This document shows positions 39,701 through 42,700 of a stretch of 64,000 nt of DNA, one piece after another. The stretch is taken from positions 5,171,918 through 5,235,917 of the forward strand of contig OY482866.1 of the NCBI GenBank assembly GCA_960531495.1. Direction: 5' to 3'. Made by a program: the position numbers and the translations under genes. The DNA comes from Zeus faber. Its lineage: Eukaryota > Chordata > Actinopteri > Zeiformes > Zeidae. The notes under the pieces are model-generated. The model had not been told where the DNA came from and did not search any database. It saw only the letters and a list, made by a program, of their open reading frames with translations. Every line of letters begins with the position of its first letter. Within the stretch, counting starts at the first letter, position 1.

Positions 39701-42700
39701 GGGACCGACGCCATGGGTGCCCCTGCCGCTGTGACGTTCGGACTGCCGGTAAATCCGACACACACTATTTACACAATTGATCTTTTGCTATGATTTGAAT
39801 GCTACCTGACAACGTGATGGTGAACATGGGATAGAAACAATGCTGCAACTATCACATTTTCATAATTGATGAAGCTGCATTGATCATTTCACCTCTAGAA
39901 CCCAGTGAGTTCAGATTATCACAACCTTGTTGTTGATGATGAGGATGATGATGACCGTTCTGCTCACTGCAGGTGTCTGAGACGCTGACTGAGTGCAGGC
40001 GGCAGCTGAGCCGGGTGGTGGCGGTGCTGCAGGAGGTGGCGGCAGCCGGCGCTCAGATGGTCGCGTCGCTGGCCGAGCAGGAGGGCCTCAACGCCCTCAA
40101 ACTGGAGGACATTGCCTTCACGGCCGTGGAACAGGTACGGCCAACGGAAACGTGTGACGGAAACATATTGCTTTTATGCTTTGCGTCAATACTGTTACTG
40201 TTGTCCTTTAACCCCGGCAGGTCTACGGCACCCACGACGGCAACGCCCAGGAGTGCCTGCGTCAGTCCTGCAGCTCCGTCATCGCCACCATGAACAAGAT
40301 GGCCACCGCCATGCAGGAGGGCGAGTATGACGCAGAGAAGCCGCAGGGCAAGGTAGCTCTTAAATTTCAAAAGTAGAAAAACAGCACACCTGTACATCAC
40401 AGTACTTTTTGCATTGAGCCATCTGGTAGATTTAAAACCCAAAGCATTCGCTTAGTAGTTCATTTTTTGTCTCTATTGATCACCGGCACTTGCAGCCTTT
40501 CCAGGAAGGTTAGTGTATTGTGCAGGGATTGTATTTCCAAACTGTAGTAAATTCTAAATCCAAAGCAGCCTAGACTTTGTGTTGCATAGACATGCATGCA
40601 TTGAGATCAGTGCAACAAAAAAACAACTTCTTACCAGGTCCATGAGGTGCTTGAATTTCGTCCTCAGAATTTTAAGTTCCTGTGTCGCGCAGTGACAGAT
40701 TGGCCATCTGGCAATGAGGCAAATGCCAGAAGGGCCGCCCTACTATGATCCGTCAAATCCCTGCTCGCCCAGTTGGGCGCAGGGAAATGTGGCGTACAGA
40801 AGATCGTTTTCCCAGTGTGGACGTGGGGGCGGGAGTCCTTCTGATCGAGGCTCACCCTGTGGATGGTGTGAGGCTGATAACGGCACCCGTCGCACCAGGG
40901 CGTGATCTTCCAGGACTCGGGTTGCTTGGGAATGCAGCCCAAAGCAGGTGGTAAACTCCATCTAAGGCTAAATACTGGTACGAGACACATAGTCAACAAG
41001 TACAGTGAGGGGAAAGTGGAAAAACTTTGAGGAGAGAGTTCAACAGGGCATGAAACTAAAGAGGTAAATGGGTCGGGTCCGCGCATACCGCTGGGGGGTC
41101 TCAACCCAGGGATTAGGCTCAGTGACCCGGTGTCATGAGGATCCCCTCATTAGGGACCTCTGCCCGGGCCTCGTCCAACCCCCGTCGGACCGCATTTCCT
41201 CCGCGGCAGTGCGCTGCGACCGCCTCTGGATCGGTTGAGAAGAGCTCGGGGGCGAAGGTGGCTTTACAGCACCCCGACCTCTTCCCGGGGCCGCAGACTC
41301 GATTACTTGTTGCGGAACGGGGCCCCTTCGCCCCCCCCCCCCCCCCCCCAGCGCGGCCCTCAAATGGTGCGGGATCCCACTGCCCCCCCGCCTGGTCCGC
41401 CGGGAATGTGGAGATTGAGCACGTGCGATAATATCCGGAAGATAGTGAACTATGCCTGGGCAGGGCAGAGGAAACTCTGGTGGAGGCCCGTAGCGGTCCT
41501 GGTGTGCAAATCGGTCGTGCGGCCTGGGCATAGGGGCGAAAGACTAATCGAACCATCTAGTAGCTGGTTCCCTCCGAAGTCTCCCTCAGGCGCTCGACAC
41601 TTACAGTTTTATATGGTAAATCGCTATCTCAAGCTTTTTATGTTAACATTTGGGTGGGGTTGGTGTTGGGTTGGTAATGCCATGGACATTTTTTGATCCC
41701 AGTACCTCACTGGTGTCGTGTCTCCCGTTCAGACTCATCCGGTGGAGATGAGGGCAGCGGCGGTCAGAGCCGAGATGACCGACTCGGAGGGCCTGGGGGT
41801 CAAACTGGAGGACAGAGAGACCGCCATCAAGGAGCTCAAGAAGTCCCTTAAGATCAAGGTAACACAAAAAATCGAATCTCTACAAGTCTTGTTTTTTGTT
41901 TTTTTTTGTGGAACGGTCTTTCCAGAGCAGGTCTTCACTCCACCTCCTCCTCCTTGCAGGGCGAGGAGCTCAGCGAGGCCAACGTCCGCCTCAGCCTGCT
42001 GGAGAAGAAGCTGGACACCTCCACCAAGGATGCGGACGAACGGGTGGAGAAGATCCAGACCAAGCTGGACGACACGCTGGCCCTGCTCAAGAAGAAGGAA
42101 AAGTAAGTCGTTGGAAACGCAGCTCGGTGCATCGCTGTGAAAGTACGAGAAACTTCTGGGGTTTTTGGCTTTGGTAATATCGTGGTATATTGTTAAATGT
42201 TGTCTTGCAGTCAAGTTATTCAATGTCTTGGGTCCCTCCTACCTCAGGGAGTTCGAGGAGACGATGGACGCCCTTCAGGCCGACATCGACCAGCTGGAGG
42301 CGGAAAAGACGGAGCTGAAGCAGCGCATCAGTAACCAGTCGAAGACGACCATCGAGTCGATCCGAGGTCCGCTCCCCGCTGGGATTGCCTCCGTCGTCCA
42401 GGGAGCAGCTGGAGGTGCGCGGCGTGCGGCGTGCTTTATCAGCGATATTAAGACTTGAAAGTGATCGTAACTTTGTGTCTTAGAAAGGAAAAAAATATAT
42501 ATGTCAATTGAAAACACATAAAGTGAGAAATATGTTTATTGTAGGGTGAATAGTTTTGGGGTCCCTCACCTGAAGAGATTTAACAAAAAAAGGAACGGGG
42601 GGGGAGGGGGGTGTAACGTGTTTAATGTAGGTTTACATTATCACATTAAAAAAAATATATAGATATAGCTAGATAGCTAAAAATATATATTATGTTGTTT

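Follow-up and report, generated by a model that had tools for sequence, protein, structure and literature searches.

How does a piece of a 28S rRNA gene come to lie within an intron of dctn1? The question arises from the window, the 64-kb stretch of DNA analyzed here, in which a preliminary description had recognized about 0.88 kb of decayed 28S sequence and had favored its capture at that site by DNA repair. Our reading, to which we assign a probability of about 0.93, is that positions 40690 to 41712 are a dead nonautonomous transposon of the hAT superfamily, with a segment of the host's 28S rRNA gene as its interior (Table 1).

The placement in dctn1 given in that description was confirmed: the exons at 40221 to 40352, 41733 to 41858, and 41960 to 42103, which lie on both sides of the element, match Dynactin subunit 1 of PDB (best E values, 1.1e-14, 8.3e-15, and 2.2e-16, respectively), and the 28S sequence is in the sense orientation relative to the gene. 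The right end of the element is 20 bases from the dctn1 exon, and the 3' target-site duplication stops 12 bases before it. From 41705 to 41732, the 3' end of the element and the duplication stand just ahead of the dctn1 3' splice site, and the branch-point region is now transposon derived. CTCAC at 41706 to 41710, with its A 23 bases away from the G of the splice-site AG, fits the loose branch-point consensus yUnAy; such matches are common by chance, and we draw no conclusion from this one.

The ribosomal identity of the interior was established by an Rfam scan and by alignment. For the 64-kb window, only two matches, both to LSU_rRNA_eukarya (RF02543), are listed at the gathering threshold of Rfam 15, two weaker matches of the same clan being omitted; both are on the plus strand, one at 41433 to 41567 (137 bits; E value, 7.9e-33; model positions 814 to 954) and one at 40707 to 41188 (116 bits; E value, 5e-27; model positions 24 to 664). 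Alignment revealed extended similarity to three rDNA fragments of the same genome, namely, 87% over 300 columns to L010 (window 40751 to 41048), 80% over 410 columns to L011 (40784 to 41188), and 83% over 236 columns to L017 (41402 to 41623). The segment is thus in the plus orientation, about 0.88 kb long, and decayed, as had been described, with its extent corrected from 40753 to 41630 to 40751 to 41623. The internal 28S deletion that had also been reported is plausible, as points equivalent to 41143 and 41428 are 285 bp apart in the window versus 1,091 bp in L018, although L018 may carry an insertion instead. The alignment with the rDNA fragments also contains an 8-bp gap after 41588. Within the D2 remnant, positions 41331 to 41349 are 19 C's in a row, a run that is error prone for assembly and mapping. 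A reference 28S sought in viral_contigs gave 0 matches.

Table 1. Coordinates of the element, its parts, and its host intron in the window
Feature	Position	Strand	Basis
dctn1 intron, 1,380 bp, holding the element; GT at 40353, AG at 41731-41732	40353..41732	+	Direct reading; flanking exons match Dynactin subunit 1
5' target-site duplication GTGTCGCG	40682..40689		7/8 match to 41713-41720
Nonautonomous hAT-type DNA transposon, 1,023 bp, with 28S cargo	40690..41712	+	Ends recur genome-wide; 8-bp target-site duplication statistic
Transposon 5' end (CAGTGACAGATTGGCCATCTGGC...), not 28S	40690..40750	+	Common to 5' ends of other copies
Captured 28S rRNA gene segment (D1, D2 remains, conserved core to GGTAAA)	40751..41623	+	Rfam RF02543; alignments to L010, L011, L017
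Transposon 3' end, finishing ...GATCCCAGTACCTCACTG	41624..41712	+	Common to other copies
3' target-site duplication GTGTCGTG	41713..41720		7/8 match to 40682-40689

What the preliminary description had missed are the transposon ends, which occupy 61 bp on the left of the 28S segment and 89 bp on its right, and the recurrence of the structure elsewhere in the genome. In a side-by-side comparison of copies, their edges are the transposon ends (left, CAGTGACGGATTGGCCATCTGGCAATTGGGCAAATGCC...; right, ...GATCCCAGTCCGTCACTG), and the commonest ends in the genome are CAGTGACGGA... and ...TCCGTCACTG. The two ends of the window copy agree at 10 of the first 14 and 10 of the first 20 bases. Immediately outside them, GTGTCGCG and GTGTCGTG differ by a single C/T, at a CpG, which gives GTGTCGYG as the target in the window.

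Target-site duplication was assessed in the 23 copies for which both ends were obtained; as the control, the left flank of each copy was paired with the right flank of every other copy (506 pairings). The flanking 8-mers agree at six or more positions in 15 of the 23 copies versus 7 of the 506 cross-pairings, and the mean flank identity is 0.66 at a length of 8 and 0.23 to 0.27, similar to the control, at lengths of 5, 6, 7, 9, and 10. Three copies (L029, L040, and L061) have a perfect 8-bp duplication. Agreement falls below six of eight in 8 of the 23 copies (the 28S-rich L012, L015, L020, and L022, as well as L026, L043, L048, and L062), and the left ends of L012 and L015, both without a clear duplication, are damaged. 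The 28S-rich copies in the window and at L009, L016, and L018 each have their own, different duplicated target, matching at six to seven of eight positions. Therefore, the 28S sequence moved along with the transposon.

Copies were sought in the same genome (803,497,848 bases in 153 contigs) with window positions 40600 to 41800 as the query. With 40 of the 538 candidates scored, at least 59 matches were obtained and merged into the window and 39 other places, the 20 best of which were fetched with their flanks. Many of these matches begin at window position 40690 and stop at about 41672 or at 41714, beyond the 28S sequence itself. An end or the 3' subterminal sequence of the element is carried by 17 of the 20 fetched loci, 16 with one or both ends and L019 with subterminal sequence only. 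A 36-base pattern of the 5' end, with up to three mismatches, occurs at 76 sites in the genome, and a 24-base pattern of the 3' end, with up to two mismatches, occurs at 72; the reversed controls gave 0 in both cases, and the window copy is present in both lists. Dozens of relatives are thus spread over the large contigs. JC divergence from the majority sequence of the 3' region at non-CpG sites ranges from 0.035 to 0.313 over 27 copies, the value for the window copy being 0.052. Two loci differ in their interiors. L043 (C1:57342310-57344610) has only the two ends in common with the family, and its 1.8-kb interior matches neither the window element nor L027. In L057 (C1:52765700-52769850), a copy of 3.87 kb, the element is broken by roughly 2.6 kb containing open frames of 259 and 135 amino acids; on visual inspection, these look like another hAT-type transposase.

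Elements of the hAT superfamily have 8-bp target-site duplications and short terminal inverted repeats starting CAG. The family has short inverted repeats of the CAG type, the two ends of the window copy agreeing at 10 of 14 positions, and the duplication signal appears at length 8 only among lengths 5 to 10, with seven of eight positions matching in the window. The window copy lacks a transposase. Among sister copies, PF05699 (Dimer_Tnp_hAT) was detected in L052 in the sense of the element (E value, 3.2e-7; 30.5 bits versus a cutoff of 21.4) and, just above the same cutoff of 21.4, in L026 (21.6 bits); in the other three of these five fragments (L053, L051, and L027), the match is below the cutoff. 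Two unrelated subthreshold matches also appeared in the scan of these five fragments. The fragment in L047, which is alike by eye, gave no Pfam match, and of the other long frames beside 3' ends, those of L037, L044, and L047 gave none and that of L041 gave a reverse transcriptase domain with a weak LRR_5 match. A search among solved structures returned 0 matches to the transposase remnant. No intact autonomous partner was among the copies read. A candidate for such a partner, a long copy on C6, has a 5' end at 2920096 with three mismatches and a transposase match at 2924410 to 2924580 with one stop. The hAT remnants in sister copies likely belonged to the owner of these ends; they could instead stem from a second hAT.

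The joints between transposon and cargo are shared among copies. The left transposon/28S junction, GCCGAATCCCC or a decayed form of it, is the same in all eight copies that keep both the left end and D1, three of which (L012, L020, and L022) have a small deletion just inside it. Of the 22 aligned copies, all but L022 and L036 have the right junction after GGTAAA, intact or decayed (20 copies). The first set comprised 18 loci with the element (the window plus 17), and 10 of these contain D1/D2 28S sequence. The transposase-bearing copies, where readable, contain a short 28S piece only; that of L036 begins at the equivalent of about 41466, near CCAGAGGAAACTCTGG, and L059 has a 22-base trace with the same start. 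GCCGAATCCCC, often decayed, also lies near the left end of transposase-bearing copies, and at the window-like junction at least 11 bases are common to the transposon and 28S. In the transposase-bearing copies, GCCGAATCCCC is either transposon sequence that gives 11 bases of microhomology or a leftover of 28S.

Several copies also contain, inside the 28S sequence, an insert of about 300 bp termed INS (e.g., L028 4169-4480) that has inverted ends and a duplication of 8 bp of 28S, CTGACGTG, which suggests a separate, nested hAT-like MITE. INS is accordingly probably not part of the main transposon, and it is absent from the window copy. The 28S sequence is uninterrupted across the INS site in the window, L014, L018, and L019, and no transposase-bearing copy with uninterrupted 28S at that site was seen among the copies examined. 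INS gave no match in L050, L056/L064 (one place), and L060, in which the neighboring sequence is lacking too.

The 28S sequence reached dctn1 by DNA transposition, because it lies between ends flanked by a target-site duplication, these ends recur at at least 70 sites, and the left junction is common to the copies that retain it (eight of eight). The same three findings leave the capture of rDNA at the dctn1 site by repair of a double-strand break, the origin first proposed, without support and very improbable: the 8-bp duplication flanks a unit that exceeds the 28S segment and is bounded by inverted ends, and unrelated places show the same junction. That proposal fits the missing poly(A), and the 28S of L010, L011, and L017, which have no transposon ends, indicates that other dispersal does occur; repair-type capture may still explain the first entry of rDNA into the transposon, elsewhere and earlier. 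Retroposed rRNA and SINE28 have an A-rich or simple-repeat tail and target-site duplications of variable length. Direct reading of the sequence, in agreement with the preliminary description, found no poly(A) or simple-repeat tail at the 28S segment or the element, and this, together with the inverted ends and a duplication signal confined to 8 bp, upholds its preference for an origin other than LINE-driven retroposition; the piece was not made by a LINE. Although SINEs derived from 28S exist, SINE28 is described as coming from the 3' end of 28S (PMC8010984), whereas the window cargo is the 5' part, and a 28S-headed SINE or other LINE-driven, SINE28-like retroposition is scarcely credible here. 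The error-prone run of 19 C's might be held to favor an assembly artifact, a highly improbable origin given that the structure repeats at many loci with distinct flanks and target-site duplications; assembly error is unlikely to be the main cause of the window structure because the structure recurs with different flanks.

How the cargo itself was put together is a separate matter. It is possible, if doubtful, that a short 28S piece came first and that homology-guided exchange with the rDNA array later added D1-D2. Two left entry points with one common right end (window-like at GCCGAATCCCC; L036 and L059 near CCAGAGGAAACTCTGG) and the bases shared by transposon and 28S at the window-like junction are consistent with such a stepwise origin. 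The reverse order is equally possible, however, as GCCGAATCCCC in the transposase-bearing copies may be a 28S remnant, and a 28S sequence that runs unbroken through the INS site occurs in window-like copies but was seen in no transposase-bearing copy. Nor are the forms ordered by a tree of 29 rows (27 copies and two rDNA rows) that was built from 234 of the 332 columns of the 3' region: its inner branches are short and weakly supported, and even the two rDNA rows stand apart. Repeated exchange between cargo and rDNA array via homology, a process suggested for Pokey and its IGS repeats, would also give common right and differing left breakpoints and is an unlikely variant. On the transposition reading, 28S DNA of an rDNA unit would have been taken up by a hAT element, probably via template switching or microhomology-guided (gap) repair inside the element; a hAT transposase supplied in trans may then have recognized the ends and spread the transposon, 28S included, and one copy would have landed in the dctn1 intron and presumably decayed there ever since. 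Nothing points to a present function for the 28S cargo.

An intact rDNA array was not found in the own-genome search (40 of 124 candidates scored, with very common words skipped), which did yield other 28S fragments. L010, L011, and L017 are such rDNA fragments, with none of the element's ends in their fetched stretches; L011 (C21:24166000-24174500) is a degenerate rDNA unit comprising 28S, 5.8S, and a small-subunit remnant. Some places, among them C1:33908035, C4:12323127, C1:36810516, and C8:30431909, match the L010 28S query over bases 50 to 160 or so only, have similar ends, and may represent a second repeat derived from 28S.

Much of the dispersed 28S examined (17 of the 20 fetched loci) is explained by a single family of DNA transposons instead of numerous independent repairs. 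The window case is thereby an instructive example, from an abundant family, of the uptake of host DNA by a mobile element and not a one-off repair scar, and the family offers a large natural set for the study of host-sequence capture by transposons with terminal inverted repeats (TIRs). The risk of false rRNA annotation that had been raised for this locus is real, as the window copy, like several of its sister loci, exceeds the Rfam gathering score. Therefore, Rfam-based pipelines would annotate these copies as LSU rRNA unless they are masked. Because the window copy is in the sense orientation in dctn1, intronic reads resembling 28S may be expected.

In terms of known systems, the window element belongs with the multicopy Pack-hATs, its passenger being 28S rRNA coding sequence. 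A host gene fragment (28S, 40751 to 41623) lies between the ends of one TIR element, and joint movement is evident from the left junction in eight of eight copies and the different target-site duplications in the window, L009, L016, and L018. Pack-TIRs, which are likewise TIR transposons with a captured host fragment, have been described in animals, where 208 of 370 cases are hAT and a multicopy example has distinct target-site duplications (Tan et al. 2021, PMC8277862). That account gives microhomology at one breakpoint or at both for 190 cases (67.6%) and attributes multicopy Pack-TIRs to transposition after replication fork switching (PMC8277862). The multicopy cases named there are few, three in frog and one in alligator, whereas the window family has dozens of copies, many with a short 28S remnant only; the term rRNA is absent from the main text of that account, and the passenger here is 28S coding sequence (PMC8277862).

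Pokey, a piggyBac element of Daphnia, is like the window element in being a DNA transposon that spreads rDNA-derived sequence, but the passages on its structure describe IGS and ITS2, not 28S coding sequence, and insertion at TTAA in 28S genes (PMC3849761). Unlike Pokey, the window family has 8-bp target-site duplications and dispersed copies, and its target in dctn1 is GTGTCGYG rather than TTAA or rDNA. SINE28 is a 28S-derived interspersed repeat like the window family, but it is described as a retroposon from the 28S 3' end (PMC8010984). Isolated rDNA pseudogenes are likewise dispersed, decayed 28S, and L010, L011, and L017, without the element's ends, look like such pseudogenes. Among the matches listed from one open-access library, none reports a hAT element that carries 28S coding sequence; the passages of PMC10186657 and PMC10257491 that were retrieved do not describe one. 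Both halves of the structure have precedent, the capture of host fragments in Pack-TIRs (PMC8277862) and the carriage of rDNA spacer in Pokey (PMC3849761).
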